From the NCBI GenBank assembly GCA_009746045.1, contig RPFO01000076.1, positions 4,065,433-4,129,432 of the forward strand: a stretch of DNA of 64,000 nucleotides, read 5' to 3'. Position numbers and translations under genes: made by a program. Source of the stretch: Mesostigma viride (taxonomy: Eukaryota; Streptophyta; Mesostigmatophyceae; Mesostigmatales; Mesostigmataceae). Below are positions 7,187 through 58,273 of this stretch, one piece after another. The notes under the pieces were generated by a model that worked only from the letters and a program-made list of their open reading frames with translations, ran no database searches and was not told the origin of the DNA. Every line of letters starts with the position of its first letter. Position 1 is the first letter of the stretch.

Positions 7187-10100
7187 CTAGCTACATCATC
7201 CCCTGTAAATAGTCAATCACCCCTTGGGGAAGGTGTGTTGGATGTACATAAGGATGGGGGTGTGCCCCTTGTGCAGCACCAAGGGTGTAAAGATGTTGTT
7301 CTTCCACTGGATTGCAATAACAATGCTGCAGCTGAATTCCCTATGCCTCATGCAGGTGGTGGGTCTCCAGCAGGTGCTGGCCTGGAGGGCCAAAGGACCT
7401 TGCTGGAAGGGCCTGGAGCGGTCCAGGGAGCAGGACCTGGCTTGGGGAGTCAGGATGGCCTGCAGGAAGGCCCTGGAACCTCAGGAGTGGATCATGTGTC
7501 CCCACACACGGTTCAGACGTCTCGCCAGGTCAGTACTGACAGAGTGCTGAGCTATGCTGAGGCTGGCCATAGATTGCATCATATGTTTGGGCATTCTGGG
7601 CAGGCAGCAATGTTTGCTTGGAAGCTAGGTAGGGAGCCTTTGTGGGAGGCATGCCAGGCTGCTGCTGAGAACTGTGGTTGCCAGGAGAATGCTGTTCACC
7701 CACCTCAGTCCCATGCTAGGGAGCCTGCTAGGGAGCGTGGCGACATCCAGATGGATATCCAGCATATCAGGGGCTTGTATATATTGGTGGCAGTGGACAG
7801 GTTCAGCAGATATAGGCTGATAGACGTTCTGCCTGGTATGCAGGAGCACCACTTGTTGTTGGGTATGAAGGCCCTGATCCCAGGCTTTGGGGTGTGCAAG
7901 AGTGTGCAGGCAGACTTGCAGTTTGACTGTTTGCTCAAGCATCAGGACCAGCTGCCTTGTAAGCTGGTAGTAGTCCCCAGGGAGAGTCATGGGCAGCAAG
8001 GGGCTGTAGAGAGATCCATACGTGAAGTGAAGACAGTGGTGCTAGCAGCAGAGTCAGTGCCACTTGTGGCATCTGCCTTAGAGAGGGCAGCCTGGTGTAA
8101 GGGGATAGAAGAGCAGCTGAACCACAGGGTTAACTATTACTTTGATGGTGTGGCTGTCTCTCCCCTGGCCCTGCAGTATAGCTTGTTACCTGAGAACGTG
8201 GTGCAGGCCAGTCTTAGGAAGGCAGATAGGTTATTTGCCCAGCTGAGACGTAAGGACAAGAACTGGAATGTGCTGAGGCCTCAGGTGGGGCTGAAGGTCA
8301 GGATGTGGAAGGAACCATCTATTCCAGGCAAGCGGGGGAAGTGGCAGGATGGGGTTGTCACTCGTGTGGAAGAAGCTAACAGATCTTGCCTGGTGGCTTT
8401 GGAAAAGGATCCAAGGCACGTGTACAGGTTGTCCTGGGCTCATGTCAAGGAAAGAAGGCCACATGCAATCTGGCCTGCAGACGGGCCAGGCCCTCCCAGC
8501 TGGGTTGAGGAGCCAGGCCAGAGCCAGGCAGCAGCAGCTAACAATCCTCTGGTAGTGGATGATGGTCTGTCCCTGCTGGAAGATGACGAGCAGGAGGAGG
8601 CTGCTGAAGCAACTGTCACAAGGCCAGAGGGGACGGGGCAGCCACCTAAGGCCCGGGGGCCTCTCATGGCGGACGTCATCCGAGCACTCATGCGCAGCAA
8701 ACATGATCCCAAGGTATCCAAGCTCACGGGGTGGGGGTCGTGCTGGGCAGCTACAATGGAGGTAGATACCAACTCACAGGTGTCTGTCATCAGGGAAGAG
8801 GATGCTGTAGGCTTACAGATGTCCCATCCCAGTTGCCTTGCTGTGTCTGATTTCTCAGGAAAGGTGTCCATGAAGATCCTTGGGGAAGTGAGTGTGCCTA
8901 TCTTAGGGGTGCCCACCACGTTCTGTGTGGTAGAGGGCTATAAGGGGCCTGCCATTCTGGGACAGAACTTCTTGTGCATGCCAGGGGTTACTTTGACCTC
9001 TGATGAGTTGGCACTAGAAGGCAGGGGCAGCCTCCCCCTTGAAAGATATCACTATTCCCAGGGTCTTGCAGTGGCGGTGAAGGCTGTTAGGAGTCAGCCA
9101 GCTGAGGGTCCTCAGAGTCAGGAGCCCATAGCTGAGGACTTGTTGATAATCCCAACCACCTTTGATCCAAGGCAGTTAGGGGTAAACAGGTACCAGATAG
9201 CTGCTCACAGTCCTATTCCCTGGCGCCAGCTAGTCGAGATGATGCAGAGCCCCAAGATGGCTAAGGCATGGACTCTTGGCTTTGTTGCTTCTGGGCATGA
9301 GTGGATAGTTTCCAACTGTGCAGAACCTGTGGATGAGCTGCCAGAAGTTCACCAGCTGCTCAGATTGATGTTTGTCCTCAAGCTCAAGGAGGTTGATGGT
9401 GTCCAGGTGCCACATGTCAGACCAGTTGTAACCGAGTATCATGGCACTGGCCAGTTGTTAGATGAGGAGCTCTATACTCCAGGGATGCTGCATGACACGT
9501 GGAGGATTCTGCTGTGTATATTTCTGTCTTTTCTGGTTAAGGGTGTGCCCTATAGCTCTGTGCTGATTGATTTCAAGAGGGCTTTTCTCAAGGGTGACCA
9601 AGATCAGGCTAGGCAGACTTGGAGAGATATCCCTCCTTTCTTTGTGACTGTACCTGCTGTATGGAGAGCAGAGATAAAGGCCAGGTACCTGAGAATTCTG
9701 AAAGGGTTGGAAGGTCTCAGGTCCAGTCCCATTATCTGGAGAAAGAGCCTAGAGAAATTCTTGAAGAATACTTGTGGGTTCTGTGTCTCCAGTGGATCCC
9801 TGTTTGTTCCAAGGGTCCTACAATGGCCTTCCTGTCTTTGCCTCACTGCATGGTGATGACCTGCATCTCATAGGTCCACCAGACTGGGTTGAGGCTGTCT
9901 TGGCTAAGATCCAGAAGCGGTTTGAGCTGGGTAAGATACAGCACATGGTGGAGAATGAGCCTATGGTCTTCTGTGGCATGCAGGCTACGTTGTTCCAAGC
10001 CAAGGGCTCGTGGTTCATCAGGATGGAGGGTGGTAAGGACTACCCACAGCAGATTGTAGATGCATTGCAGGAGCCCATCACGCAGGCTAGGTGTGCTACC

Positions 10101-10736
10101 ATCAGGGGCATGCTGGCATGGCTTGCAAGTATATGTGCCCCTGACTTGCTGGTTCTGAGTCGACTTACTGATTCCCAGCTGGTTGAGGTGGGTGCTGAGA
10201 GTGTGGTGCAGGCTGTCATGATGTCTCCCCCTCTCATACTGGGTCCTGTGGATTTGTACAAGCCCCTTGACATGGTTCTCTATGTAGACAGTTCTATGGA
10301 CAATAGGAAGGTCACAGAGGTCAGGGGCCGGGCAGCAGCATTAGTTACCCTGGAGCAAGATCACACCTCACTTGTTACCTGGTACAGTCGGTTACAGAAC
10401 AGGGTTACACCCAGCAGTGATATTGCTGAGTGCAGGGCAATCTGTGAAGGGCTGCATACTGCTCTTTACTTGAGGGAGCTCTTCTACCAGCTATGTCAAG
10501 TGGCTTCCTGTAGGTTGCAGCTGCACACACTGGTGAGGACTGATAGCATGGGCATGGTGCAATTTGTGCACAGGCAGCAGGCCAGGAGCAGGGACCTTGA
10601 CTACTTGTTGCTCAAGGAGATGTCCTACCTAGCTCACATTAAACATGTGCCTGGTGTGGACAACCCTGCAGATGCCCTCACCAAGCTGGAGGAGAAGGCG
10701 GAGAGGCAGTACCCCCTGCTCCGTGGGCTCATGGAC
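7187..10736 (+). pseudogene. pol: pol of element A: IN, PR-like, RT, RNase H; broken
   Basis: Open in one frame from the gag stop to 9856, then shifted near 9776 and continuing in another frame to 10736, where the palindromic insertion cuts it. Integrase: zinc region around HHMFGHSG, then Asp in GDIQMDIQHI, Asp in QADLQFDC and Glu in GAVERSIREVK. Next comes a retropepsin-like domain with VDTNSQVSVI (Asp codon 8764-8766) and AILGQNFL. RT: IDFKRAFLKG and the catalytic box HGDD at 9849-9860. RNase H: YVDSSMD, AECRA, RTDSMG and NPADALTK. The domain order IN-PR-RT-RH is unusual for the copia group. Confidence 0.9.
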
Positions 10737-10942
10737 AGTTACGTTAAATAGTGCCGGAACCTTTTGCCGCCTGAGGCAAATCGGTCCGTAACACTATTTT
10801 GCCCGGAATAACCACTTCCGAGCACCCAAGTTAATTCGGCCGAATTAACTTGGGTGCTCGGAAGTGGTTATTCCGGGCAAAATAGTGTTACGGACCGATT
10901 TGCCTCAGGCGGCAAAAGGTTCCGGCACTATTTAACGTAACT
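10737..10942. repeat. 206-bp perfect palindrome, unit 1
   Basis: Two 103-bp arms meet at CGGCCG with no spacer; I find no mismatch between the arms. Starts AGTTACG and ends CGTAACT. Confidence 0.95.
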
Positions 10943-11074
10943 AAAACCTGGCCTCGTGGAGGGGGGACGAAGAGCCCGAGACATCCGCCTAGGCCGCTGA
11001 GCACGCACCACTAAATGCGCCGGAGCTGCCTCAGTGAGGATTCGAACCCCTGACCTCCAAGGTGCACAGGTTTT
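10943..11074 (-). other. tRNA-like core 1, family 1
   Basis: Reverse complement of the core at 11281-11411 with a few substitutions. The Pol III B box (GGTTCGAATCC) is at 11038-11048 on the minus strand. The first and last eight bases (AAAACCTG / CAGGTTTT) are complementary. Confidence 0.8.
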
Positions 11075-11280
11075 AGTTACGTTAAATAGTGCCGGAACCT
11101 TTTGCCGCCTGAGGCAAATCGGTCCGTAACACTATTTTGCCCGGAATAACCACTTCCGAGCACCCAAGTTAATTCGGCCGAATTAACTTGGGTGCTCGGA
11201 AGTGGTTATTCCGGGCAAAATAGTGTTACGGACCGATTTGCCTCAGGCGGCAAAAGGTTCCGGCACTATTTAACCTAACT
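11075..11280. repeat. 206-bp palindrome, unit 2
   Basis: Same sequence as unit 1 except near its right end, where CCTAACT replaces CGTAACT, so one terminal pair is mismatched. The hybrid ends suggest recombination or template switching between units. Confidence 0.95.
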
Positions 11281-11411
11281 AAAACCCGTGCAACTTGGAG
11301 GTCAGGGGTTCGAATCCTCACTGAGGCAGCTCCGGCGCATTTAGTGGTGCGTGCTCAGCGGCCTAGGCGGATGTCTCGGGCTCTTCGTCCCCCTCCACGA
11401 GGCCAGGTTTT
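11281..11411 (+). other. tRNA-like core 2, family 1
   Basis: CTTGG-AGGTC-AGGGG-TTCGAAT-CCTCA-CTGAGGC-A has the order and spacing of a tRNA anticodon-stem 3' side, variable loop, T arm and acceptor 3' strand. The B box GGTTCGAATCC (11307-11317) is perfect. The T stem is weak (one G-T pair, one A-A mismatch). Further on, GCTCAGCGGCCTAGGCGG resembles a D-arm/A-box region of a leucine- or serine-type tRNA, but in the wrong order. A 5' acceptor match GCCTCAG lies at 11240-11246 in the neighbouring palindrome. It is not a valid tRNA gene. Confidence 0.55.
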
Positions 11412-11617
11412 AGTTAGGTTAAATAGTGCCGGAACCTTTTGCCGCCTGAGGCAAATCGGTCCGTAACACTATTTTGCCCGGAATAACCACTTCCGAGCAC
11501 CCAAGTTAATTCGGCCGAATTAACTTGGGTGCTCGGAAGTGGTTATTCCGGGCAAAATAGTGTTACGGACCGATTTGCCTCAGGCGGCAAAAGGTTCCGG
11601 CACTATTTAACGTAACT
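11412..11617. repeat. 206-bp palindrome, unit 3
   Basis: Starts AGTTAGG and ends CGTAACT; otherwise as unit 1. Its right end abuts the target duplication TGGAC. Confidence 0.95.
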
Positions 11618-12133
11618 TGGACCCCTTACACGGGCGGCCATAGAGACCAGGCCTTGCTTCAGCTTGGGTGCCCCCAGTGGGCTGCTTGACCAAAGTACCA
11701 AGTGGTGACTGGTGCTTACTGGTTGACAGCCGGTCCTTCAGGGTTAGGTACACCCTCCTGGACAGGAGTTGGTATGGAATGTCACTCCTACCAGCTGAGA
11801 ATCATGCCTGGCCCTCCCCATGGGGTTCAGAAGAGTCGCCAGGACTTAAGTCGACGCCTTTGGCCTCAAACAGTTAGGCCATGCAAGGGCAACCCGAATG
11901 TTGGTTCTTACAGGTTGCTGTACATATGTTTTCTAGTGCTTGTTTCCAACCTGTTGCTAATAAAGAACCTGGTTGTGTGACCATGTGGAACATGGTTGCC
12001 AGGGGGCCACATTCTGGGTTATATAATGCTTGAATAAAACATAATCATGTCATGTCATTCTCATGTTGTTCCCATGGTTGTCATGTTTCTCTTGTGTAAA
12101 GTTCCAGGTCACCTATAAACCTGGAGGTTGGGG

Positions 12134-19893: not shown

Positions 19894-20164
19894 AGTTAGG
19901 TTAAATAGTGCCGGAACCTTTTTGCCGTTGGGGCAAATCGGGCCGGAACACTATTTTGCCCGGAATAACCACTTCCGAGCACCCAAGTTAATTCGGCCGA
20001 ATTAACTTAGGTGCTCGGAAGTGGTGAATCCGGGCAAAATAGTGTTCCGGCCCGATTGGGGCCGAATTAACTTAGGTGCTCGGAAGTGGTGAATCCGGGC
20101 AAAATAGTGTTCCGGCCCGATTTGCCCCAACGGCAAAAAGGTTCCGGCACTATTCCACCTAACT
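19894..20164. mobile_element. Solo palindromic element, family 1 variant
   Basis: Starts AGTTAGGTTAAATAGTGCCG and ends in CCTAACT. It is a diverged relative of the 206-bp palindromes at 10737-11617, without a tRNA-like core. Part of the right arm (20006-20060) is duplicated, so the arms are unequal. Flanks GAATG and CACTT do not match, so a target duplication is not supported. It resembles a solo LTR of the palindromic family. Confidence 0.75.
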
Positions 20165-23443: not shown

Positions 23444-24087
23444 AGTTAGCATTTTGGGCAACCAATATGCTAAGTGGACGCAGTTTGGAAAGACCTTTCC
23501 AACGCCGTGCTGACCGCCTGAAACAGACAAGGGACGAGAAAGATATCAAGTCCCGAAGTCCTAGCCATCCGTGGCCGACTAGGGTGCAGTCCTCTGGCAT
23601 AGTGGACAGGACACGTGGCAGGCCGTGCCTGCACAGGCTTAGCCTGATTATCACGTGACTGTGGTCCACGTAGATCAGAGGAGCAGCAGCCTGTGACTGG
23701 TGGAATACTGGAGCTGGCACAGGTCTGCAAGGATACTAGGCCTTGCAGGCTTGTGACAGGTCCTGTACTTCCTAGGTTGCAGAGTCTAGGCAAATCCAGT
23801 TCGTCCTGGCTCTGCACTGATGCCAGTGGACGTTGAGGATTTGCTTGCACGCCTGCACGTGCCTCGTCACACCGATGGGAACGAGGAACAACGCAAGGAT
23901 ATAGCTTGGTCATGGGGGATGACCAGCTATCTCGAAAAGCACGAACCGTGGGTGCCACCTTGGTCGTGGAAGTGCCCATTGTGGTCGTGGCCTGGTGAAC
24001 AGATTTAAGGTTGCTGCCTTGCAACATTGGCTAAGACGCGCTGTGAAATATCAAGAGCTCACATACGCTGGGGAGCTCTTTCTAACT
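23444..24087 (+). repeat. 5' LTR of element C
   Basis: AGTTAGCATTTT...TTTCTAACT, 644 bp. The next ten bases (24088-24097) are CGTATTATTG, exactly complementary to 32264-32273. Confidence 0.95.
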
Positions 24088-24097
24088 CGTATTATTG
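24088..24097 (+). promoter_or_regulatory. Primer-binding-position site, element C
   Basis: CGTATTATTG, one base different from A (CGTACTATTG). The 3' UTR partner carries the compensating change. Confidence 0.6.
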
Positions 24098-24330
24098 TCT
24101 CCTTACTTCTTCATGTCCAACGTGCCGAGGGAACAGGCCATTGAGCCTTCGCAAAGCCAGAGCTCGCAGCCGCAGCTTCGGGTAGGAGCCCCGGAGCGAT
24201 CACGACCTTTTCATCCCTACGCTCATCCGAGCACCGCATCAACCTTCGTCCAGGCGGCGTACCTGGCAAGGGGGCTGGCGAAGAAAGGTTGGGTAGCAGT
24301 TTGCGGAACTGCAGCAGGGCCGGCGGCGAG

Positions 24331-24406
24331 AGTTAAGTAATGCAATACGCATTACTTTTGCATACTTGCAAGTATGCAAAAGTAATGCGTATTGCATTAC
24401 TTAACT
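24331..24406. repeat. 76-bp perfect palindrome (family 2)
   Basis: AGTTAAGTAATGC...GCATTACTTAACT, with centre TTGCAA. Copies are at 24657-24732 and 25269-25344, a half copy at 24981-25018 and a shortened copy at 25595-25625. Confidence 0.95.
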
Positions 24407-25018
24407 AAAATTGGGCCGCGTGGGGAAATCCGGCGTTCCGCACACACCGCTCGTTACCGAGGTGACTCGATTAATTACGACTCGGCTATTCCCAGCCTCA
24501 CGCCGTAATTCCTATTTCGACTTGGCCTACCCGGCCTCCGCCAAACATAGAAATCCACAAATATTTCGACTTGGCCTCCCAGGCCTACCCGCCGCAAATA
24601 TTTCCGTGCCTCCGAGAGGATTCGAACCCGGTACCCCAGGAGCGAACGCCAATCTTAGTTAAGTAATGCAATACGCATTACTTTTGCATACTTGCAAGTA
24701 TGCAAAAGTAATGCGTATTGCATTACTTAACTAAAATTGGGCCGCGTGGGGAAATCCGGCGTTCCGCACACACCGCTCGTTACCGAGGTGACTCGATTAA
24801 TTACGACTCGGCTATTCCCAGCCTCACGCCGTAATTCCTATTTCGACTTGGCCTACCCGGCCTCCGCCAAACATAGAAATCCACAAATATTTCGACTTGG
24901 CCTCCCAGGCCTACCCGCCGCAAATATTTCCGTGCCTCCGAGAGGATTCGAACCCGGTACCCCAGGAGCGAACGCCAATCCAAGTATGCAAAAGTAATGC
25001 GTATTGCATTACTTAACT

Positions 25019-25268
25019 AAGATTGGCGTTCGCTCCTGGGGTACCGGGTTCGAATCCTCTCGGAGGCACGGAAATATTTGCGGCGGGTAGGCCTGGGAGG
25101 CCAAGTCGAAATATTTGTGGATTTCTATGTTTGGCGGAGGCCGGGTAGGCCAAGTCGAAATAGGAATTACGGCGTGAGGCTGGGAATAGCCGAGTCGTAA
25201 TTAATCGAGTCACCTCGGTAACGAGCGGTGTGTGCGGAACGCCGGATTTCCCCACGCGGCCCAATTTT
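25019..25268 (+). other. tRNA-like core, family 2 (four copies in all)
   Basis: 250 bp. Near its start, CCGGG-TTCGAAT-CCTCT-CGGAGGC-A has T-arm and acceptor layout, with a perfect B box GGTTCGAATCC at 25047-25057. The others are at 25373-25383 (plus) and 24618-24628 and 24944-24954 (minus). TAGCCGAGTCG further on resembles an A box but is in the wrong order. The core begins AAGATTGG and ends CCAATTTT, nearly complementary. No complete tRNA fold could be found. Confidence 0.6.
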
Positions 25269-26650
25269 AGTTAAGTAATGCAATGCGCATTACTTTTGCA
25301 TACTTGCAAGTATGCAAAAGTAATGCGTATTGCATTACTTAACTAAGATTGGCGTTCGCTCCTGGGGTACCGGGTTCGAATCCTCTCGGAGGCACGGAAA
25401 TATTTGCGGCGGGTAGGCCTGGGAGGCCAAGTCGAAATATTTGTGGATTTCTATGTTTGGCGGAGGCCGGGTAGGCCAAGTCGAAATAGGAATTACGGCG
25501 TGAGGCTGGGAATAGCCGAGTCGTAATTAATCGAGTCACCTCGGTAACGAGCGGTGTGTGCGGAACGCCGGATTTCCCCACGCGGCCCAATTTTAGTTAA
25601 GTAATGCAATGCGCATTACTTAACTGCGAGCGACCCCATTGTGATGCAGATTGAGGCTTCGACAGCTCCCGGCGAATTGTCGCGAGAGGCCGTCGAAAAG
25701 TTTGTGTCAATACGGGACGAGCTGTCCTCGACCATTTACGGTCTGGAGGTGGCTCACCAGGGCGGGCACGTGACCGTGTCGCAGCTGGATTTGGCGCGGG
25801 AGGCACTGGGCCAGATCGTGGCCATTGGACTGGGAGCAGCGCGACTGTTCAACCATCAGGTGGCAACGTCTGTGCTGGGCGCGGGAGTTGAAGTCCCGGA
25901 CGTGATCAGGCAAGCGCAGGCGCGCGAAGTCGACAACCCCTGGTCGTCGGCAGAGGTGGTTTCACAAACGTGCGAACACCTCGTGAACATTCTTTTGCAG
26001 GAGTCACGGGGCAACGCAGACCGGTGGGTGATAACCACACGACCATTTGGGATTTGGTCAACACTCGACACACCGCGGGCGGCGGAACCAGACGCACACG
26101 ATCCAGTGGTCGAGGTCATCACGGGTCGGGAGGTAACGCCAGAAGACTTCCATTACCAATTCGTTGATCAGCCAGAGGGGATCATCGAACGTTCATCTCA
26201 GCAGATAGATCAAGGCGACGGTACCACAGAAGGGTACGCTGCACGACGTCGTGCTGAGCTGCACGTCCCGCAAGAGCCCGAACACGACTACGGTGGTCGT
26301 GGGGCTTGCAACGACAAGCGGGGTGGTGGAACGCGGTGGGTGAGGAACCTTGAGTGGGATCGCTCGAGTGGGAGCGAGCCCCGGATCCCAGTGGAGAAGT
26401 CTGCAGACGGGCGACCCGTTAGCAGAGTGTTTGGACCCTACGCCGACGGGAGGACGCCGCTGGCAGCGACGAGGAGCGGCCAGAGACGCCCATCGCAGCC
26501 ACTGCTCAAGAGCGAGAGCTGGAGGCAGCGAACCAAGCAGGTGCTGAGTCAGTAGCTGGGACGGTGCCCACGGCATCCCCCAGCGACACCAGTGCTTGAG
26601 TCAGTTCTTCCTTTTCCTTCGCCTTTATTGTTGTGTCCCCACTGTATATA

Positions 26651-28003
26651 ATGCCTCGTGGCAAACCGGGCGACGGCGACAAGGGCGAGGAGGGGGCACC
26701 GGCTGGAGAGAGCCAGGAGCCTGGGAAGGGCAAGGAGGCGCTGGTGGGAGAGGCGATCCCAGCCAGCGACGGCGATGGGGGAAAGCGACCAGGGAGCAAG
26801 AGGCGACACGAAGACTCGGTGGAGGAGGCGCGCAAGGCGCGGGCGCTGGGGGCATCTGATGCAATAACGGTGGCGAATGGGCAACCTGCCGTGGAGAAGC
26901 GTAAGAGGGACCCCTCTGCTGACGGCAATGGTAAGAGGCCTCATGTGGATGTGCTCTCCCCTGTGCCTGCTGGACCAAGTGGTGCTGTTGTTGTGACACC
27001 CGCTGTGGTGGAGCCAGTGAAGGCGCTGCCAGGGTCGAGACCTCACATGAGTGCTGTCACTGTTATGAATGGACAAAAGCCTCTTAACCCACCACTAGCA
27101 CAGGAAGCTTTGGACAAGTGGCTAGAGGACATGGAGCTTGTTGTGTTCTCCGTGGACCCCACTGTCAACCTAGTGCAAGTGTTTCACTCGTCCACGTGCA
27201 ACAGGGACTCGTCAGAGCGTGTCAGGGAGAAGGCTAGGACTGCTGTCAAGGATAAGCTAACCTGGGCACAGTTCCTGGAAGGGTTGAGGGAGAGTTCTCT
27301 GACAAGGTTCTCAACCTCACCAACTACTACAAGCACCAGTATGACACCTTTGAGATAGTGGGCCCTGTGGCAGAGGAATGGGCTAGGCTCAACCGTATCA
27401 GGACAAGGGGGCCAAGTATGGCTTCCTGGTCACAGATAGGGCCTTGGCAGACTATTTCCTGGACCGTATGGGTTTGAGTGTGGATGGGAGGAACGGTGCC
27501 CGCATGTTTCTTAACCAGACTGATGGCTCCTTGCGTGCTCTGGAGCTTGTAATCCTCAGCATAAGGAAGCCAGAACCTGCCTGCAAGGCTATCCAGTCCC
27601 ATGGCAGCAATGCCACCTCCGCTGTGCAGGGCCAAGGTGATGTCCCCGGGTACCCAGCCCGTGATGGGGCAAGGCCCAACAAGCGTAAGCGCTTCAGGCG
27701 CCAGAGGCAGGGGCTCAGGGTGGCAAGGGTGCAGGTCCCCAAGGAGGGGTTGGGGGCCAGCAAGCTGGTGGTCAGCAGGGTAAGGGTGGCCAAGGGCAAG
27801 GCAAGGGCCAAGCTCAAGGCAACCAGGGCAAGCAGGGTGGGCAGCCTCAGGGAGGCCAGGGGAAGCCTGGCAAGGGTGGGGCTGGGTCTGGGAAGAAGGG
27901 TGGAGCATGTTTTGTGTGTGGCAAGGAAGGTCACTGGCGTCGTGAGTGTCCTGACAGGAAGGCCAAGCCTGCTGGGGCAGGAGGCCAGTCTGGGCAGCAG
28001 TGA
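26651..28003 (+). pseudogene. gag: gag of element C, frameshifted
   Basis: ATG in TATATAATGCC. The capsid-like helical region (LDKWLEDMEL, SSTCNRDSSERVREKARTAVKDKLTWAQFL) is open to ~27290, where one base is missing. Further single-base losses lie near 27400 and 27710. The Gly/Gln-rich tract and the knuckle CFVCGKEGHWRREC precede TGA at 28001-28003, followed by CTA. Confidence 0.85.
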
Positions 28004-31000
28004 CTAGCTACATCATCCCCTGTAAATAGTCAATCACCCCTTGGGGAAGGTGTGCTGGATGTACATAAGGACGGGGGTGTGCCCCTTGTGCAGCACCAAG
28101 GGTGTAAAGATGTTGTTCTTCCACTGGATTGCAATAACAATGCTGCAGCTGAATTCCCTATGCCTCATGCAGGTGGTGGGTCTCCAGCAGGTGCTGGCCT
28201 GGAGGGCCAAGGGACCTTGCTGGAAGGGCCTGGAGCGGTCCAGGGTGCAGGGCCTGACTTGGGGCGTCAGGACGGCCTGCAGGGAAGCCCTGGAACCTCA
28301 GGAGTGGATCATGTGTCCCCACACACGGTTCAGACGTCTCGCCAGGTCAGTACTGACAGAGTGCTGAGCTATGCTGAGGCTGGCCATAGATTGCATCATA
28401 TGTTTGGGCATTCTGGGCAGGCAGCAATGTTTGCTTGGAAGCTAGGTAGGGAGCCTTTGTGGGAGGCTGCCAGGCTGCTGCTGAGAACTGTGGTTGCCAG
28501 GAGAATGCTGTTCACCCACCTCAGTCCCATGCTAGGGAGCCTGCTAGGGAGCGTGGCGACATCCAGATGGATATCCAGCATATCAGGGGCTTGTATATAT
28601 TGGTGGGGTGGACAGGTTCAGCAGATACAGGCTGATAGACGTTCTGCCTGGTATGCAGGAGCACCACTTGTTGTTGGGTATGAAGGCCCTGATCCCAGGC
28701 TTTGGGGTGTGCAAGAGTGTGCAGGCAGACTTGCAGTTTGACTGTTTGCTCAAGCATCAGGACCAGCTGCCTTGTAAGCTGGTAGTAGTCCCCAGGGAGA
28801 GTCATGGGCAGCAAGGGGCTGTAGAGAGATCCATACGTGAAGTGAAGACAGTGGTGCTAGCAGCAGAGTCAGTGCCACTTGTGGCATCTGCCTTAGAGAG
28901 GGCAGCCTGGTGTAAGGGGATAGAAGAGCAGCTGAACCACAGGGTTAACTATTACTTTGATGGTGTGGCTGTCTCTCCCCTGGCCCTGCAGTATAGCTTG
29001 TTACCTGAGAACGTGGTGCAGGCCAGTCTTAGGAAGGCAGATAGGTTATTTGCCCAGCTGAGACGTAAGGACAAGAACTGGAATGTGCTGAGGCCTCAGG
29101 TGGGGCTGAAGGTCAGGATGTGGAAGGAACCATCTATTCCAGGCAAGCGGGGGAAGTGGCAGGATGGGGTTGTCACTCGTGTGGAAGAAGCTAACAGATC
29201 TTGCCTGGTGGCTTTGGAAAAGGATCCAAGGCACGTGTACAGGTTGTCCTGGGCTCATGTCAAGGAAAGAAGGCCACATGCAATCTGGCCTGCAGACGGG
29301 CCAGGCCCTCCCAGCTGGGTTGAGGAGCCAGGCCAGAGCCAGGCAGCAGCAGCTAACAATCCTCTGGTGGTGGATGATGGTCTGTCCCTGCTGGAAGATG
29401 ACGAGCAGGAGGAGGCTGCTGAAGCAACTGTCACAAGGCCAGAGGGGACGGGGCAGCCACCTAAGGCCCGGGGGCCTCTCATGGCGGACGTCATCCGAGC
29501 ACTCATGCGCAGCAAACATGATCCCAAGGTATCCAAGCTCACGGGGTGGGGGTCGTGCTGGGCAGCTACAATGGAGGTAGATACCAACTCACAGGTGTCT
29601 GTCATCAGGGAAGAGGATGCTGTAGGCTTACAGATGTCCCATCCCAGTTGCCTTGCTGTGTCTGATTTCTCAGGAAAGGTGTCCATGAAGATCCTTGGGG
29701 AAGTGAGTGTGCCTATCTTAGGGGTGCCCACCACGTTCTGTGTGGTAGAGGGCTATCAGGGGCCTGCCATTCTGGGTCAGAACTTCTTGTGCATGCCAGG
29801 GGTTACTTTGACCTCTGATGAGTTGGCACTAGAAGGCAGGGGCAGCCTCCCCCTTGAAAGATATCACTATTCCCAGGGTCTTGCAGTGGCGGTAAGGCTG
29901 TTAGGAGTCAGCCAGCTGAGGGTCCTCAAGGTCAGGAGCCCATAGCTGAGGACCTGTTGATAATCCCAACCACCTTTGATCCACGGCAGTTAGGGGTAAA
30001 CAGGTACCAGATAGCTGCTCACAGTCCTATTCCCTGGCGCCAGCTAGTCGAGATGATGCAGAGCCCCAAGATGGCTAAGGCATGGACTCTTGGCTTTGTT
30101 GCTTCTGGGCATGAGTGGATAGTTTCCAACTGTGCAGAACCTGTGGATGAGCTGCCAGAAGTTCACCAGCTGCTCAGATTGATGTTTGTCCTCAAGCTCA
30201 AGGAGGTAGATGGTGTCCAGGTGCCACATGTCAGACCAGTTGTAACCGAGTATCATGGCACTGGCCAGTTGTTAGATGAGGAGCTCTATACTCCAGGGAT
30301 GCTGCATGACACGTGGAGGATTCTGCTGTGTATATTTCTGTCTTTTCTGGTTAAGGGTGTGCCCTATAGCTCTGTGCTGATTGATTTCAAGAGGGCTTTT
30401 CTCAAGGGTGACCAAGATCAGGCTAGGCAGACTTGGAGAGATATCCCTCCTTTCTTTGTGACTGTACCTGCTGTATGGAGAGCAGAGATAAAGGCCAGGT
30501 ACCTGAGAATTCTGAAAGGGTTGGAAGGTCTCAGGTCCAGTCCCATTATCTGGAGAAAGAGCCTAGAGAAATTCTTGAAGAATACTTGTGGGTTTTCTGT
30601 GTCTCCAGTGGATCCCTGTTTGTTCCAAGGGTCCCACAATGGCCTTCCTGTCTTTGCCTCACTGCATGGTGATGACCTGCATCTCATAGGTCCACCAGAC
30701 TGGGTTGAGGCTGTCTTGGCTAAGATCCAGAAGCGGTTTGAGCTGGGTAAGATACAGCACATGGTGGAGAATGAGCCTATGGTCTTCTGTGGCATGCAGG
30801 CTACGTTGTTCCAAGCCAAGGGCTCGTGGTTCATCAGGATGGAGGGTGGTAAGGACTACCCACAGCAGATTGTAGATGCATTGCAGGAGCCCATCACGCA
30901 GGCTAGGTGTGCTACCATCAGGGGCATGCTGGCATGGCTTGCAAGTATATGTGCCCCTGACTTGCTGGTTCTGAGTCGACTTACTGATTCCCAGCTGGTT

Positions 31001-31573
31001 GAGGTGGGTGCTGAGAGTGTGGTGCAGGCTGTCATGATGTCTCCCCCTCTCATACTGGGTCCTGTGGATTTGTACAAGCCCCTTGACATGGTTCTCTATG
31101 TGGACAGTTCTATGGATAATAGGAAGGTCACAGAGGTCAGGGGCAGGGCAGCAGCATTAGTTACCCTGGAGCAAGATCACACCTCACTTGTTACCTGGTA
31201 CAGTCGGTTGCAGAACAGGGTTACACCCAGCAGTGATATTGCTGAGTGCAGGGCAATCTGTGAAGGGCTGCATACTGCTCTTTACTTGAGGGAGCTCTTC
31301 TACCAGCTATGTCAAGTGGCTTCCTGTAGGTTGCAGCTGCACACACTGGTGAGGACTGATAGCATGGGCATGGTGCAATTTGTGCACAGGCAGCTGGCCA
31401 GGAGCAGGGACCTTGACTACTTGTTGCTCAAGGAGATGTCCTACCTAGCTCACATTGAACATGTGCCTGGTGTGGACAACCCTGCAGATGCCCTCACCAA
31501 GCTGGAGGAGAAGGCGGAGAGGCAGTACCCCCTGCTCCGTGGGCTCATGGACCCCTTACACGGGCGGCCATAG
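28004..31573 (+). pseudogene. pol: pol of element C: IN, PR-like, RT, RNase H
   Basis: Same frame as gag across TGA CTA. Integrase with D, D, E as in A. Small deletions near 28467 and 28606 and another shift near 29890 interrupt it. Retropepsin-like VDTNSQVSV (DTNS at 29580-29591) and AILGQNFL precede the RT. The RT-RNase H part (29957-31573) is fully open: IDFKRAFLKGDQ, HGDD at 30665-30676, YVDSSMDNRK, AECRA, RTDSMG, NPADALTK, ending LHGRP. This is the best RT/RNase H copy in the window. The enzyme would copy element RNA to DNA in particles; integrase would then insert it. Confidence 0.92.
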
Positions 31574-32584
31574 AGACCAGGCCTTGCTTCAGCTTGGGTG
31601 TCCCCAGTGGGCTGCTTGACCAAAGTACCAAGTGGTGACTGGTGCTTACTGGTTGACAGCCGGTCCTTCAGGGTTAGGTACACCCTCCTGGACAGGAGTT
31701 GGTGTGGAATGTCACTCCTACCAGCTGAGAATCATGCCTGGCCCTCCCCATGGGGTTCAGAAGAGTCGCCAGGACTTAAGTCGACGCCTTTGGCCTCAAA
31801 CAGTTAGGCCATGCAAGGGCAACCCGAATGCTGGTTCTTACAGGTTGCTGTATATATGTTTTCTAGTGCTTGTTTCCAACCTGTTGCTAATAAAGAACCT
31901 GGTTGTGTGACCATGTGGAACATGGTTGCCAGGGAGCCACATTCTGGGTTATATATTGCTTGAATAAAACATAACCATGTCATGTCATTCTCATGTTGTT
32001 CTCATGGTTGTAATGTTTCTCTTGTGTGAAGTTCCAGGTCACCTATAAACCTGGAGGTTGGGGTGGGGTTCAATTCCCCAGCAGAGCCACAGCCTGGCAT
32101 GAGTGATTCCTGGGCTTAACACCCAGTGAAGACATGGGCTCCCCAATAAGGCAGTATTGTGTAGGTGCTACCTGAGTCTCTTTGAGCATAAAAGGGAAAG
32201 GCTGGCCAAGGCGGGCGCCATAAGAACGGGCGCCTGTGATAACTGTGAAAGATCAGGAACTCACAATAATACGTTCTTGGCATCCTTTAATCCCAGCCAT
32301 TGGACTAGGTAATGTGCCTTGACTTTAATCTAACACCAAGTTCCCAAGGAAAGGTTGGGAGCTGACCAAGGGGTCAGGGGATAACCTGGGGTGACCTCTG
32401 ATTCACTGGCCAGTACACCTAGCCTGGTCCAAGGGCGTATATGTTGTTTCCCAAAAGGAGGCAGGACCCTGGGCCCTATCAGGTCTGATCAACCCCAAGG
32501 GACCAAGCGGTCTGTGGCTGAGTGGGCACAAGCAAGGTTAGGCTTGTTTCAAGCTGGTCCAGCTCCAAAAGAAGAAAGGGTTGG
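31574..32584 (+). other. 3' UTR of element C
   Basis: About 1 kb. AATAAA near 31889 and 31963; T-arm hairpin 32064-32080 with B box 32067-32077; GGCGCC hairpin ~32214-32235; complement site CAATAATACG 32264-32273; polypurine tract AAAAGAAGAAAGGGTTGG directly before the 3' LTR. The AATAAA signals precede the structured block, so mRNA ending there would lack it (inference). Confidence 0.75.
32264..32273 (+). promoter_or_regulatory. 3' UTR complement of the primer-binding position (C)
   Basis: CAATAATACG pairs exactly with 24088-24097; differs from the element A site by the compensating base. Confidence 0.6.
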
Positions 32585-33228
32585 AGTTAGCATTTTGGGC
32601 AACCAATATGCTAAGTGGATGCAGTTTGGAAAGACCTTTCCAACGCCGTGCTGACCGCCTGAAACAGACAAGGGACGAGAAAGATATCAAGTCCCGAAGT
32701 CCTAGCCATCCGTGGCCGACTAGGGTGCAGTCCTCTGGCATAGTGGACAGGACACGTGGCAGGCCGTGCCTGCACAGGCTTAGCCTGATTATCACGTGAC
32801 TGTGGTCCACGTAGATCAGAGGAGCAGCAGCCTGTGACTGGTGGAATACTGGAGCTGGCACAGGTCTGCAAGGATACTAGGCCTTGCAGGCTTGTGACAG
32901 GTCCTGTACTTCCTAGGTTGCAGAGTCTAGGCAAATCCAGTTCGTCCTGGCTCTGCACTGATGCCAGTGGACGTTGAGGATTTGCTTGCACGCCTGCACG
33001 TGCCTCGTCACACCGATGGGAACGAGGAACAACGCAAGGATATAGCTTGGTCATGGGGGATGACCAGCTATCTCGAAAAGCACGAACCGTGGGTGCCACC
33101 TTGGTCGTGGAAGTGCCCATTGTGGTCGTGGCCTGGTGAACAGATTTAAGGTTGCTGCCTTGCAACATTGGCTAAGACGCGCTGTGAAAGATCAAGAGCT
33201 CACATACGCTGGGGAGCTCTTTCTAACT
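32585..33228 (+). repeat. 3' LTR of element C
   Basis: 644 bp, almost identical to 23444-24087; followed by CCCTG and by element D pol. Confidence 0.95.
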
Positions 33229-42606: not shown

Positions 42607-43768
42607 CTATGGCCGCCCGTGTAAGGGGTCCATGAGCCCACGGAGCAGGGGGTACTGCCTCTCCGCCTTCTCCTCCAGCTTGGTGAGGGCATCTGCAGGG
42701 TTGTCCACACCAGGCACATGTTCAATGTGAGCTAGGTAGGACATCTCTTTGAGCAACAAGTAGTCAAGGTCCCTGCTCCTGGCCAGCTGCCTGTGCACAA
42801 ATTGCACCATGCCCATGCTATCAGTCCTCACCAGTGTGTGCAGCTGCAACCTACAGGAAGCCACTTGACATAGCTGGTAGAAGAGCTCCCTCAAGTAAAG
42901 AGCAGTATGCAGCCCTTCACAGATTGCCCTGCACTCAGCAATATCACTGCTGGGTGTAACCCTGTTCTGCAACCGACTGTACCAGGTAACAAGTGAGGTG
43001 TGATCTTGCTCCAGGGTAACTAATGCTGCTGCCCTGCCCCTGACCTCTGTGACCTTCCTATTATCCATAGAACTGTCCACATAGAGAACCATGTCAAGGG
43101 GCTTGTACAAATCCACAGGACCCAGTATAAGAGGGGGAGACATCATGACAGCCTGCACCACACTCTCAGCACCCACCTCAACCAGCTGGGAATCAGTAAG
43201 TCGACTCAAAACCAGCAAGTCAGGGGCACATATACTTGCAAGCCATGCCAGCATGCCCCTGATGGTAGCACACCTAGCCTGCGTGATGGGCTCCTGCAAA
43301 GCATCTACAATCTGCTGTGGGTAGTCCTTACCACCCTCCATCCTGATGAACCACGAGCCCTTGGCTTGGAACAACGTAGCCTGCATGCCACAGAAGACCA
43401 TAGGCTCATTCTTCACCGTGTGCTGTATCTTACCCAGCTCAAACCGCTTCTGGATCTTAGCCAAGACAGCCTCAACCCAGTCTGGTGGACCTATGAGATG
43501 CAGGTCATCACCATGCAGTGAGGCAAAGACAGGAAGGCCATTGTGGGACCCTTGGAACAAACAGGGATCCACTGCTGGAGACACAGAAAACCCACAAGTA
43601 TTCTTCAAGAACTTCTCCAGGCTCTTTCTCCAGATAATGGGACTGGACCTGATATCTTCCAACCCTTTCAGAATTCTCAGGTACCTGGCCTTTATCTCTG
43701 CTCTCCATACAGCAGGTACAGTTGCAAAGAAAGGAGGGATATCTCTCCAAGTCTGCCTAGCCTGATCT
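42607..43768 (-). pseudogene. pol: RNase H and C-terminal RT of element E (first copy)
   Basis: Encodes RT from a position just before WRKSLEKFLKNTCGF through SLHGDDLHLIG and the whole RNase H to LHGRP. It ends at 43768, where an inverted ORF0 fragment is joined. A second copy of the same region is at 44782-45640. Confidence 0.9.
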
Positions 43769-50204: not shown

Positions 50205-50662
50205 AGTTAGATGAGATGCTTAGGCTGACACACGGATTTCCGGCCTGCGCGCCGCGTATTGCCTACCGCGGTTGAGCGGGACACCTCAGTACAGTACGGC
50301 AGGGTGTACGGTACTGAGGTGTCATGTGGACCGATGTGCGGTTAGTGCCAGACTGTGCCTAGACTCCAGCTCGACCCGCCAGACCCGGGTTATCCGGTTC
50401 TGGACGGGCCGAGTGTAGTTGATGCTAGTAACGTGGTCGCATGGCATTGCAGTGTACAGTTGTCCACTGGTGAGGTGCTGCAGGTAGCACCGCCATAGGC
50501 ATATAGGCGTAGCACTGGGGAGTGCCGCAGCACCCGAGTTTGCCCAGACGTTCCATTCTGAGCCCTCAGCTTCCATTGCTCTCTCATTGTATTATTGCTA
50601 ATACAATCATCATTCGCTTTCAGCTTCAGCAGTTGTTCGTCGTCCCTAGTCTCCATCCAACT
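50205..50662 (+). repeat. 5' LTR of element G
   Basis: 458 bp, AGTTAGATG...CATCCAACT. Contains the inverted pair ACACCTCAGTAC / GTACTGAGGTGT near 50280-50323, a hairpin inside the LTR. Confidence 0.92.
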
Positions 50663-50673
50663 TGGACTGAAAA
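50663..50673 (+). promoter_or_regulatory. Primer-binding site, element G
   Basis: TGGACTGAAAA starts right after the LTR and with TGG, as for a CCA-ended primer. It is exactly complementary to TTTTCAGTCCA at 58144-58154 in the 3' UTR of the same element. Confidence 0.65.
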
Positions 50674-50703
50674 GTTCTTTATTTTTTCGAAAAGCAAAAA
50701 AAT

Positions 50704-52251
50704 ATGGCTTCAAACAACGGCGGCAACAACAACAACAAGGGGAAGGCGCCTGCCAGGCGCACCTCACCCCGACTTTCGCCGGAGGGCACGCCCTCCACCA
50801 ACGATGCGAGGGTGACGCCCAACGTCACCTTCCGCACGGTGGTCGCCGACCACCCCAGGCGTCGGACCCCGCAGGTGGGGCCCGGCGCCCGGGGGATGGC
50901 GAGCGGTCGTCCGTTTGCCACTGGCGGTTCGTCCGCCATGGCACCTGGGGGGCAGGTCCCCCGGGCACGTAATTCCCCCGTCGCAGGTGACGGGGGTCGT
51001 GAGCGGAGTGATTCCTCGGAGGAGGATGGGGAGGTGCAGCCTGCGAGGTCACGGCCTTCGCTCGAGATTTCGACACAGACGCCTGCGACGTCTGGTAATC
51101 TTTCCGTGGGCCGACAGATGGCCATCATGGACATTGACCGGTATGGGGAACATGTTCCGCCCCTGTCGCGTTCGGGCGCGTACCCCATCTTCTCCCCATT
51201 GGGGAGGACGACATCCCAGCGTTCATTTCGGTGAACGGCTGGATCATTCGGCAACGTTTCAGTTGACGGCAGATGAGCCGATCCATGCGATTGAGGTTCA
51301 TCGGACGCAAACGATGATCGAGAATCGTTTGAGGATGCAGTTCCCCTGATCCAGGTGGCAGTTTGGCTGTGGTGTTTCACCAATAGGCCGCGGCGAAACC
51401 CCGGCACTGTTGATCAGTGGGCGTCCAGGCAGCGTCAGAGAGAGGCGCTGCGCGTGGTCGCCACCAGGAGATCACGCTGACTCCGTTGGGGCCGTGGCCC
51501 CAAGTCACGCCAGTTGGCTGGGGCCCGGAGAGGCGTGAGGCGGCTGCGATGCCGCCTGCGACGGAGCGCGGGGCGGCAGACGCCCCCAACACGCCCATGG
51601 GTGGTGAAGCCACCCAGGACCCTCTGGCAGGTCAGAGGGTCCAACCTCAGCCGCGGGCTCCCCCGCCCAGCGTGGGGGGCCAGGTGGCTGAGGAGGCCAC
51701 CGGGGTCGCAGGGACCCCGGCGGCGACACAAGCGCCCGGGGTCGCAGGGACCCCGGCAGCGACGCCGGCGCCTCCGGCGCTGGCGGGGGATGCAGCCCCC
51801 ATGGAGGGTGTCACGGGCACCTCCAGCGGCTCTGGGGGGCAGGCCCCCTCTAGCCGCAACAAGGACAAGGCCCTGGCAGGGCCGGAGGGGCCTCAGGGTC
51901 CCACCGGGCTGGGCAGCAGCCAGCACAGCTGGAGGCGACCTGGAAGGTCGGGACTTCATCACCCTGGGTGATGAGGCCGTGTGGCGTGCCATACAGACAG
52001 CCACAGCCTCCTTCCGTGGGCTGGCCGACCGGAGCCAGCAGATGCACGTCGCGGAGGCGGGCAGCCTGGTGTGTGCGATTATCACGCACATCCTGGGCTT
52101 GCCCAACCTCCAAGAGGGCACACGCAGGGTGTGCGACGACCTGCTGCCTGCCCTGCAGGCTCTCCTCTCAGGGAGGAGGGTGCAGGGCAACAGGGTTCGC
52201 CTGGTGCGACTCCTGGAGCTCCTGCACAATGCCATCCTGAGGGGCGGGTAG
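50704..52251 (+). pseudogene. ORF0-like region of element G, frameshifted
   Basis: ATG 50704 (MASNNGGNNNNKGKAPARR). Frames change near 51150-51230, 51400 and 51930. Visible: Asn- and Pro-rich start, Ala/Pro/Gly repeats (VAGTPAATQAP), and a folded C-terminal segment (DFITLGDEAVWRAIQTATASF, AEAGSLVCAIITHILGLPNL, VRLVRLLELLHNAILRGG). Same position as ORF0 in the other family, but I see no sequence similarity. Confidence 0.55.
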
Positions 52252-53242
52252 GTGGTTGCCTACCTGGCTGCATCATGATTTTACTAACCCTACTGACGAT
52301 GAAGTGTCCCTCTCTCCCACCTTCCATGATTGGGAGGAGGCCCGCAGCAGGAGGCGGGAAGTGACACACACTCACACCCCCACCCAGCCCACCCCTATGT
52401 TGCCTAACCCTCCTACACAGCCCATGCTTGCCCTCCTGCTCAGCTCACTCAAGTAGCACTTCCCTCTCAGCATGTCTCTCCTGTGAATGCTGCAGCAGCA
52501 ACACCATCTTCTCCCTCTCCCCCTGCATCCCCCTCTAGGTTGCCCACTTACAATGAAAACCGTCCTGTGGATAGGATTAATGTCAGGGGGCTGCCTGAGG
52601 GGTATACTAGGGAGCAGGGGAATCATGCACTTCTCTCTCTTCAGCTGGCTAGGGAGGAACTGAATGTCAAGAATTGGTTTGGATCTCTCATGCAGGGGGA
52701 TTTTACCATCAGTCCTCCTCTCAGATTCAGAATCTCATCCTTGTCTTCCAGCGTAGGTATCCCAAGTGGCAGGACACGCAGGCTAGGGCAGTTTGGGAGG
52801 CTTTCATGAAGGAGCTAACTGACCTCCTCTCCACCCCCTCATCTGTGGACATATATGGGGCATTCAGGTGGGTAGAGGAATACAGGGTCACATCAGTGGA
52901 CTATGTGGCTGAGACAAAGAAATATGAGCTAGCCATCAAAGCACGTCCTGATGTCCAGCAGCTAGATCACAAGTTCTTGCTGCGTTCCTTCCTTGAGAAA
53001 CTCAAACTTGACAAAAACACCTACGCTATGCTTGCAACAGGAATGGCAAAGTACTGGGAGGACATGAAGGAGGCATTGGATTATATCAAGCTGGCCTTGG
53101 CTCCCCTTAGCCAGGGGGCCATGGGCACCTCTGTAAAGAGGGTCAGGGGGGAAGAGAGGGAGGAGGAGGATAGGGAGAGGGAAGACAGGAGCAAGAGGCC
53201 TGTCACCATGGCAGAAGTGAAGTCCCTGCTGGGACAAATGTT

Positions 53243-53322
53243 TAAGGGAAAGGGCAAGGGCAAGGGCAAGGGCAAGGGCAAGGGCAAGGGCAGGGGCTGG
53301 GGCAAGGGCAAGGGTAAGGGGC
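53243..53322. repeat. AAGGGC hexamer repeat (Gly-Lys codons)
   Basis: Repeats of AAGGGC within gag, encoding alternating Lys and Gly; probably RNA-binding. Confidence 0.85.
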
Positions 53323-53349
53323 AGTCTCCCTCCAAGGGGGGCAGCTCCA

Positions 53350-53374
53350 GCAACAACAACAACAACAGCAACAG

Positions 53375-53469
<95 letters not shown>
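53350..53469. repeat. CAA microsatellite in gag
   Basis: About 38 CAA units with two interruptions (CAG and CAGAAC). The second interruption changes which amino acid (Asn to Thr) is read. Confidence 0.9.
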
Positions 53470-53502
53470 GAAGCAGGACAAGGAGGACAAGTCTTCTCAG
53501 CG

Positions 53503-56500: not shown

Positions 56501-57209
56501 ACCTGGAGCCTGTCCTACCATTAGAGGCAAGCTGGGGTGGTTGTGCTCAACGTGTGCACCTCACCTGGCTGTGGTTAGCAGAGTTGATGATGATGTCTTG
56601 ATGCAAGTAGGTCACAAAGCCATCACCAAAACTCTCCAGGAAGGCCCTCCCCTTATCTTGCACTCCTTGGATCTCCACAAAACCATTCACATCCAAGCTA
56701 TGATGGATAGTTCCATGGAGTCCAGGCAGATTACCAAGTTGCAGGCAAGGGAGTCAGGCTTGTATTTTGTGCAGAATGATGATGCACCCTTGTCTCTCAT
56801 TTCATGGTACAGCCGGTTGCATAGACGCAAGGCTGTCAGCAGCAATGCTGCTGAGTGCAGGGCAGTGGTGTCAGCAGTGCTTCATGCCAGGTACTTGAAT
56901 CATGTGCTGGTTTGGTTGCAGATGCAAGCAGGCAGCAATGCTGGGGTGGTGGCACACTTGCTCACTGACAGTCAGTCAGTCCTCAGTTTCCTTGCTAACC
57001 CCTATGCTGTGCACACTGATCTTGACTGGGTGGTCCTTAAACAGGAGTCCACCTACTGGGAGTCCACCCGTCACGTGGAGGACAAACACAACGCTGCTGA
57101 TGCACTCACTAAAGTGCCTCAGCAGGCAGCTGACCAATACCAGCTGTTGTACCACTTGATGAACCCCTATGGCAAGCAGGCAACCCTGCCCCATAGGGGG
57201 GACGCCTAG
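53503..57209 (+). pseudogene. pol: pol of element G: IN, PR-like, RT, RNase H; one frameshift
   Basis: First part 53503-55857: Cys/His segment CHKCHGPPHGDPKDC, integrase zinc region (LHFLYGHE; HCQHCQ), Asp in VVGDVFHIKG, Asp in LLLDQQFTC, Glu in GIIERAIRSIK, and integrase C-terminus FREGDQVLFYKES. The retropepsin-like VDTQAQVSII (55162-55173) and ALLGDPFLC follow, then RT start. A one-base change near 55827 moves the frame; the second part 55854-57209 holds TDIKRAFLKGS, HGDD (56271-56282), MMDSSMESRQ, AECRAVVS, LTDSQSV and NAADALTK. The IN-PR-RT-RH order matches the other family. Confidence 0.92.
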
Positions 57210-57616
57210 CAGGGTCCTGTTCACCAGGGCCGCCTAGGTAACCCAGTACCCCTTGGGCAGGTCCAAGGGGTAGGTTGTGGCTTCCAGCAAGGGGGGTTGG
57301 TTGGAGTCTGTTTTCATACATCTGCGTGCCCTATGCCCAATAAAATCTGTTTTGATTTTTTCAACACCATGGAATTTCGTTATGCCACCTTCATAGGTGG
57401 GCATGGGATGTATCTCACATTCTTTCTCCACTAGGGTGTATGCCTTGGTGGATTGGCCTTGAGCTCAGTGGCTCAGGTGCCTCCCATTCAAGTGGAGGGT
57501 CAAAGCTCCCTTGACAGGTGGTTACCCAGGACCCCAGTTCACTGTGGATATCCTGGGCCACCTGGCCTCACTGTTCAGTGGCAGTAAAGGCATGGGTGCT
57601 GTCATGTTGTCTAGTA

Positions 57617-57890
57617 CAACGTGCTCAGCCAGGTGCAGGATGAAATATTCCTGTCACCTGTCACCAGGACTTCAGCCACCACTGTGCAGGGCAGGGGTGG
57701 CTGGTCCCACACGTTGTGCAGGTGCAACGTGGCCAGGTCCAGGATGTCATAGTCCTGTCACCTGTCACTAGGACTTCAGCCCCCTCTGTGCAGGGCAGGG
57801 GTGGCTGGTCCTCACATGTTGTGCAGGTACAACATGGACAGTGCAGGGTGCAATAAACCTGTCCACTGTCACTCCTCAGGTTGCAGGTAA
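57617..57890. repeat. Tandem repeat, ~107-bp period, in 3' UTR of G
   Basis: Units start near 57617, 57725 and 57830 (the last partial); shared words include CCTGTCACCTGTCAC and GTGCAGGGCAGGGGTGGC. Confidence 0.8.
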
Positions 57891-58143
57891 CCTGAGCTCA
57901 GTTGACCCAGCCTGGCTGGGTATTTTTTCTCTGAGTGGGCGATGATGATGGAACAACATGGAACCTCTTAAACGGTTACCTTGGCATTTTTACAATGGCT
58001 CTCTTGGCTGGTGATGCACTCCCTGGATAGGCAGACAGGCATAGCTATCTCCCTTGTGAGCTCGCGAGGAGGAGGAACTCCCCGGGCATGTTGAGCTAAA
58101 CGTGATGCCATCACAAGTATTGCACGAGTTCTGGGGCCCATCT

Positions 58144-58154
58144 TTTTCAGTCCA
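58144..58154 (+). promoter_or_regulatory. 3' UTR complement of the primer-binding site (G)
   Basis: TTTTCAGTCCA pairs over 11 bases with 50663-50673 and ends in CCA, as a tRNA 3' end would. Confidence 0.6.
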
Positions 58155-58273
58155 GATGTTGCAGTATGGGTGTCAGTTGCTCAGCACCTCAGTCAGCTTG
58201 GAGTCAGTCTCCTAGCTGGGCAGGGTCAGGCTTGAAGTCGCTAGCCTTCAACCTGAAAGGAAAACATAATGGG

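Follow-up and report, generated by a model that had tools for sequence, protein, structure and literature searches.

Palindromic mobile elements with B-box cores, and a possible self-primed replication cycle, in the streptophyte alga Mesostigma viride

The stretch of DNA analyzed here (the window) comprises 64,000 nucleotides of contig RPFO01000076.1 in the Mesostigma viride assembly GCA_009746045.1 and is a nest of LTR elements. At 10737-11617 it contains an 881-bp element with the structure P(206)-core(132)-P(206)-core(131, inverted)-P(206), where P is a palindrome. Comparison with empty sites places the target-site copies, TGGAC on both sides, at 10732-10736 and 11618-11622. The first palindrome, P1 (10737-10942), carries AGTTA at its outer end and is followed by the 132-bp core c' on the minus strand (10943-11074), with its B box, GGTTCGAATCC, at 11048-11038 and its TTTT end at 10946-10943 of that strand. 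The central palindrome, P2 (11075-11280), separates c' from the inverted 131-bp core c on the plus strand (11281-11411; B box at 11307-11317), and the terminal palindrome, P3 (11412-11617), closes the element. The two cores differ by two substitutions and one indel, and the whole element is a near-perfect palindrome as a unit. Core c ends in CAGGTTTT (11404-11411, plus strand), which holds the sole TTTT of that core and is complementary to the first core bases, AAAACCTG in c' and AAAACCCG in c. A sequence-only reading had given these limits, unit sizes, the inversion of the core, the B box, and the AGTTA...TAACT ends with a 5-bp TGGAC duplication, all of which are confirmed. Its description of the palindromes as perfect holds for P1, over 103+103 bp; P2 and P3 each have a single mismatched pair at arm position 6 and uninterrupted arms of 97 bp. 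A diverged palindrome of the same family with an internal partial duplication lies at 19894-20164, where neither a core nor a target-site duplication was seen.

The element is real and not a product of chance, since the unit recurs many times in the genome and two paralogous sites are unoccupied. The 881-bp element sits in a copia element, and these sites lie in paralogous copies of that host, each with a single TGGAC, at 31548-31552 (plus strand) and at 42628-42632 (minus strand), and they fix the limits of the 881-bp element and of its 5-bp duplication. Two copia-type elements lie on the plus strand of the window, one at 23444-33228 (644-bp LTRs with two differences, ends AGTTAG...CTAACT, target-site copies CCCTG) and one at 50205-58735 (LTR ends AGTTAG...CCAACT, target-site copies CTGAT). 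Both combine 5-bp duplications with AGTT...AACT ends, as the palindromic elements do. LTRs usually end in TG...CA, and the AGTT-type ends in the copia elements and in both palindromic families are informative for this reason, with only four to six terminal bases in common between the palindrome families and the copia elements of the window.

The second palindromic family (family 2) is represented at 24331-25625 by an element with 76-bp palindromes and cores of about 250 bp, inserted in the copia element at 23444-33228 directly after its 5' LTR. Its units run P k' P k' half-P k P k short-P, a c'c'cc core pattern, between AGTTA...TAACT ends and target-site copies GCGAG. The last palindrome (25595-25625) is cut to 31 bp at a small inverted repeat in the arm, the outcome expected of premature fold-back or slippage. 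The palindromes of family 2 look unrelated to those of the 881-bp element (family 1). The arms of both families have their first T run beginning at position 26, with the sequence TTTTGC, and the cores have one stretch of 39 columns in common, which holds GGTTCGAATCCTCnCnGAGGCA; its local score is 21, and the highest score among 500 shuffles was 18.

The core ends follow one pattern in both families. Read on the strand of the B box, a core contains TTTT once, at the very end, and its B box begins at core position 27 or 29, depending on the family, outside P. The first and last bases of the core, which had been noted as complementary, form eight leading pairs in both families with different letters (AAAACCTG/CAGGTTTT and AAGATTGG/CCAATTTT, one G-U), and a terminal match of eight pairs occurs in 0.065% and 0.06% of random window stretches of equal length. 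The core starts AAAACCTG and AAGATTGG are thus complementary to the element's own 3' end, and RNA fold prediction for both families places the 3' end on the P/core border with pair probabilities of about 0.5-1.0. Among cores that were not de-duplicated (147 of family 1 and 10 of family 2), the eight leading pairs are kept in 106/147 and 9/10, respectively; the T7C variant (38/147 family-1 cores) shortens the end pairing to six, and a change of the last T (4/157 cores) reduces it to zero. Core variants that are 79-90% alike, likewise not de-duplicated, keep the terminal helix and differ in the interior. A change on both sides of the helix is found in one variant pair only, so that the main support for end pairing comes from the comparison between families.

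The core had been called tRNA-like, which only the T-arm/B-box block bears out; a whole tRNA is not present by ARAGORN or Rfam. ARAGORN reported no tRNA in the window, and no tRNA family appeared among Rfam matches at E<=5 for the two elements, the nearest being a piece of the tmRNA model at 11.7 bits against a gathering score of 84. Nothing in the whole window reached an Rfam gathering score, and the palindromes matched models of miRNAs and other hairpins only at scores under the respective gathering scores, so that these matches were rejected as reflecting hairpin shape. No A box was found for the palindrome elements, and no site at which a tRNA end could pair as primer could be named by eye. 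Inspection of both window elements in either orientation revealed no polypurine tract before P, which is preceded by the T-rich ends GGTTTT, CCAATCTT or CCCAATTTT.

The genome searched comprises 439.9 Mb in 2243 contigs and contains 1,129 copies of the core motif (572+557), with none for the backward control, and 1,332 copies of the exact 24-bp center of P. The 881-bp query returned 928 first-look candidates, of which the best 40 were scored and 39 places were fetched besides the window copy; these 40 loci, biased to dimers because the query is a dimer, represent 34 distinct insertions, each of which has intact ends and a 5-bp duplication. A second list, ordered by position, was drawn from the first 100 of the 1,129 motif places; it is free of the dimer-query bias and requires an intact core motif. 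Among 41 loci taken from this list and from a position-ordered list of P centers, 30 have both ends intact (24 of family 1 and 6 of family 2), and 27 of these 30 have a 5-bp duplication. With repeat insertions removed within the best-scoring and within the position-ordered set and not across the two, the duplication is 5 bp in 61 of the 64 opened copies with both ends intact. No other direct duplication length, which would have spoken against the proposed relationship to the copia-like elements, was met in these copies; the three exceptions lack a direct 5-bp duplication and are L061, where a further core seems to follow, L097, and L087, which has inverted flanks. The duplications of L083, L098 and L101 fall in C-runs and are singly weak evidence. 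A target-site motif was rejected, as 49 sites, taken with no copia sites for comparison, give a weak, roughly symmetric G/C preference. These data show that family 1 is a recently active, high-copy, non-coding mobile family and that family 2 follows the same plan. Searches of other collections gave no match, neither for the whole family-1 element in a phage collection nor for short arm patterns in prokaryote-genome and viral-contig collections.

The position-ordered motif list holds 45 family-1 clusters, 27 with several motifs and 18 with one. Of the former, 15 were opened and 12 were read from strand and spacing alone; 26 start on the minus strand and end on the plus strand, and one is '++'. 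Of the latter, 16 were opened, two on C102 being left out (for family 2, 9 of 10 clusters were opened). Four of these 16 proved to be minus-plus copies with one altered core (L078, L079, L082 and L093), one a direct tandem (L091), four monomers (L051, L080, L096, and L083 with a shortened P), and one a monomer with an inverted copy of its flank (L077); the other six are truncated or ambiguous. Altogether, the outermost cores of 32 multi-core family-1 copies in this list read c'...c in 30, with the B boxes facing inward, c...c in two direct tandems, and c...c' in none. The expectation that the units invert freely is therefore not supported. Family 1 most often takes the form of an inverted dimer, P-c'-P-c-P, whose cores turn their B-box ends toward the central palindrome. 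In the larger family-1 copies L034, L047 and the C206 cluster, an internal plus core is followed by a minus core, so joins on the TTTT side do exist. The pattern is looser in family 2, where five opened multi-core copies comprise two c'c, two cc and one c'c', that is, three direct tandems in five. The single-unit copies that had been anticipated, P-core-P, occur in both families (in family 2 as L058, and as L088 with a shortened P), and one solo palindrome was found, L098, within a C-run. Facing family-1 arm ends 148-151 bp apart were also seen at C245:2920-3070, C247:188017-188167, C446:1821117-1821264 and C874:14036-14183; they represent a shorter palindrome variant, perhaps solo copies.

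The units within one element are also more alike than those of different elements. In 28 distinct intact dimers (a set in which L027 was merged with L052, although the two may share only TG-rich flanks), differences between the two cores add up to 15 sites, whereas 200 shufflings of the cores among elements gave a mean of 35 and a minimum of 27; in 22 of the 28, no substitution separates the two cores. Arms within one element differ by 0.25-0.75 substitutions on average versus 1.29 for random arms. The mirror arms of a dimer show no greater likeness to each other than its other arms do, and single-molecule fold-back in every cycle is for this reason unsupported. Among 163 palindromes, own-arm mismatches average 1.0 in the 17 with 3-5 changes per arm, compared with 7.9 between divergent arms of different elements; in the 56 with 1-2 changes, the own arms differ by 0.86 on average and most changes are one-armed; and the six most diverged are asymmetric, with 5.8 own-arm mismatches. 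Mirrored changes thus exist beside many one-armed ones.

Some copies carry traces of events in the flanking DNA. In L077, an insert of 185 bp was considered as transduced sequence, a reading that was rejected because 183 bp of the insert repeat the left flank exactly in inverted orientation, which indicates a later DNA event. In L087, a family-2 element at 338-739 of the locus, the inverted flanks are alike at 335/337 bases. These inverted flanks suggest fold-back copying of host DNA at the palindromes or are possibly an assembly artifact. An 886-bp perfect palindrome at L043:114-999 abuts a family-1 element.

The palindrome families have features of several known kinds of elements. Foldback or MITE DNA transposons have inverted termini and strong hairpins and are non-coding. 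The palindrome families resemble them in all three respects, the arms of P forming terminal inverted repeats at both ends, but differ in ends and duplication length that match those of copia elements and in a Pol III-like core with TTTT. tRNA-derived SINEs carry a B box and a terminal TTTT in a unit of 130-250 bp. The palindrome families are like them in these two marks and unlike them in having palindromic P ends and fixed 5-bp duplications (61/64) rather than duplications of variable length and a LINE-like tail; no tail of the LINE type was seen. With TRIMs they have in common short, non-coding, directly repeated terminal repeats (P-core-P) and a short, fixed 5-bp duplication; since P is its own inverse, direct and inverted repeats coincide. 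The earlier TRIM-like reading stands in its view of a mobile element that is short and non-coding, has palindromic terminal repeats and 5-bp duplications, and ends in the same bases as the local copia elements; it fails at the 3' repeat, where both window elements lack a polypurine tract and each P is preceded by a T-rich core end.

According to the available text of Kojima (2024, PMC10886601), the TRIMp3 group includes Helenus, with a tRNA-like LTR, Cassandra, with 5S in the LTR, and Ajax; in Cassandra and Helenus, the Pol III promoter lies within the LTR, and plant and fungal Helenus make 5-bp duplications. The palindrome families resemble TRIMp3 elements, as characterized in that text, in being short and non-coding with a Pol III promoter motif, an inferred dependence on LTR elements and 5-bp duplications. 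TRIMp3 elements, however, have their promoter in directly repeated LTRs together with a primer site and a polypurine tract (PMC10886601), whereas the palindrome families have the B box in the core and not in the terminal repeat P, a palindromic terminal repeat, no polypurine tract, and common inverted dimers. Because the polypurine-tract and promoter-in-LTR tests fail, we do not file the palindrome families as TRIM or TRIMp3 members, which are nonetheless nearest in size, ends and presumed dependence. Cassandra also forms tandem arrays of LTR and internal units with common LTRs, as the available text of PMC7215508 describes; these are direct tandems, whereas multi-core family-1 copies are mostly inverted with a fixed outermost polarity. 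Literature searches covered palindromic LTRs in TRIMs, inverted dimers, Pol III elements that prime themselves, foldbacks and Mesostigma repeats; among the titles and abstract openings listed, none describes such an element.

We tentatively favor a cycle, modeled on the sequence features above, in which a Pol III RNA primes its own reverse transcription, palindromes prime the second strand and a Copia-type integrase inserts an inverted dimer. An RNA directed by the B box would start in the palindrome on the B side, perhaps near its center, cross the core and stop at the terminal TTTT. At the P/core border, its last bases (CAGGUUUU) could then anneal to the first core bases of the same RNA (AAAACCUG), and the 3' OH would serve as primer for reverse transcription into the palindromic leader. 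DNA synthesis would begin with the A of AGTTA, by which the element end would be fixed. The cDNA might next fold back in the palindrome and copy the core. Strands ending in the palindrome on the RNA-5' side would prime each other, or fold back, giving a second strand with no need for a polypurine tract and an inverted dimer with two identical ends, which a Copia-type integrase, provided in trans, would insert. Monomers, direct tandems and solo P would arise as minor by-products or through later recombination. It is possible, though we hold this with somewhat greater reserve, that the families constitute a new class of retroelement, defined by U-tail self-priming at a palindromic leader and a borrowed LTR-type integrase, with neither a tRNA primer nor a polypurine tract.

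Insertion with a 5-bp duplication is itself proven by the empty sites. The proposed cycle would be consistent with the frequency of that duplication, the ends in common with copia, the c'...c rule, the eight end pairs and TTTT with no polypurine tract, the predicted folds, the helix kept in variants, the likeness of cores within dimers, and the symmetric palindromes with 3-5 changes. Against it stand the lack of an A box or whole tRNA, mirror arms that are not specially alike, the mostly one-armed changes of palindromes with 1-2 changes, the asymmetry of the six most diverged palindromes, the T7C shortening and last-T losses, the direct tandems of family 2, the TTTT-side joins in larger family-1 copies, DNA-level fold-back after insertion (L077, L087), the mere four to six common end bases, and the weak matches of the copia RT and integrase.

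The strongest alternative, which we regard as unlikely, is a foldback-type DNA transposon (MITE) in which the arms serve as terminal inverted repeats for a transposase with 5-bp target duplications. Inverted termini in all intact copies, the solo and single-unit copies and the duplications themselves agree with it, and symmetric dimers would be favored because both ends then carry the same P and TTTT-side core sequence, a terminal symmetry that would select c'...c forms. It leaves the TTTT ends and the core-end pairing without explanation, however, and the terminal bases and duplication length of the palindrome families recur in two different copia-type LTR elements of the window. Moreover, no autonomous DNA transposon with these termini was seen in a non-exhaustive search. 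Arm ends not followed by the usual G number 218, six of those listed differ from an extra-T arm subfamily, and among the arm ends opened, L077, L081 and L099 were palindromic copies rather than an autonomous element with family-1 arms.

A further alternative, to which we give a low probability, is a TRIM-like LTR element in which P is an ordinary LTR, palindromic by chance, in a cycle primed by a tRNA and a polypurine tract, with dimers arising by LTR-LTR recombination. P-core-P monomers, direct tandems, solo P, copia-like ends, 5-bp duplications and the weak, roughly symmetric target preference would all fit; the absence of a polypurine tract in either orientation and of a tRNA-end primer site nameable by eye does not, and recombination between palindromes should give c...c' as often as c'...c, in contrast to 0/32 for the outermost c...c'. 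It is improbable that in-place DNA-level fold-back, gene conversion or replication template switching at cruciforms made the dimers and symmetric palindromes, with mobility by either of the other machineries: the 183-bp inverted flank of L077, the 335/337 flanks of L087, the 886-bp palindrome at L043 and the arms and cores homogenized within elements speak for such events, but c...c' dimers should then also arise, and dimers lie between direct 5-bp duplications at many distinct sites, which means that insertion took place as a dimer.

Direct terminal repeats, a primer site and a polypurine tract are regarded as requirements of LTR-type elements, and long palindromes are normally unstable in genomes. 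If the self-primed cycle is true, a simpler, symmetric replication cycle can supply an LTR-type integrase with its substrate, and the spread and renewal of long palindromes in a genome would be explained. The host alga stands at the base of the streptophyte line, and the predicted RNA 3' end, dimer intermediate and orientation rule are directly testable there.

A copia order, integrase before RT in one frame, is present at 7187-9853 with weak Pfam matches (rve, E 0.01; RVT_2, E 0.025); the best RVT_2 matches in the window reach 7e-7 and 4e-5, and all copia matches are below the Pfam cut-offs. The RT reading frame at 29858-31570 matches a Mesostigma viride (Mesvir1) protein of the EukProt collection with 100% identity along 64% of the frame. 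A protein labeled Prorocentrum lima, a dinoflagellate (P0002), is 87% identical to the window RT over 55% of the RT, which points to contamination or transfer. On the minus strand at 60897-62816, the window also contains a Gypsy-type integrase with a chromodomain, chromovirus-like in its domains (Integrase_H2C2, rve, Chromo).
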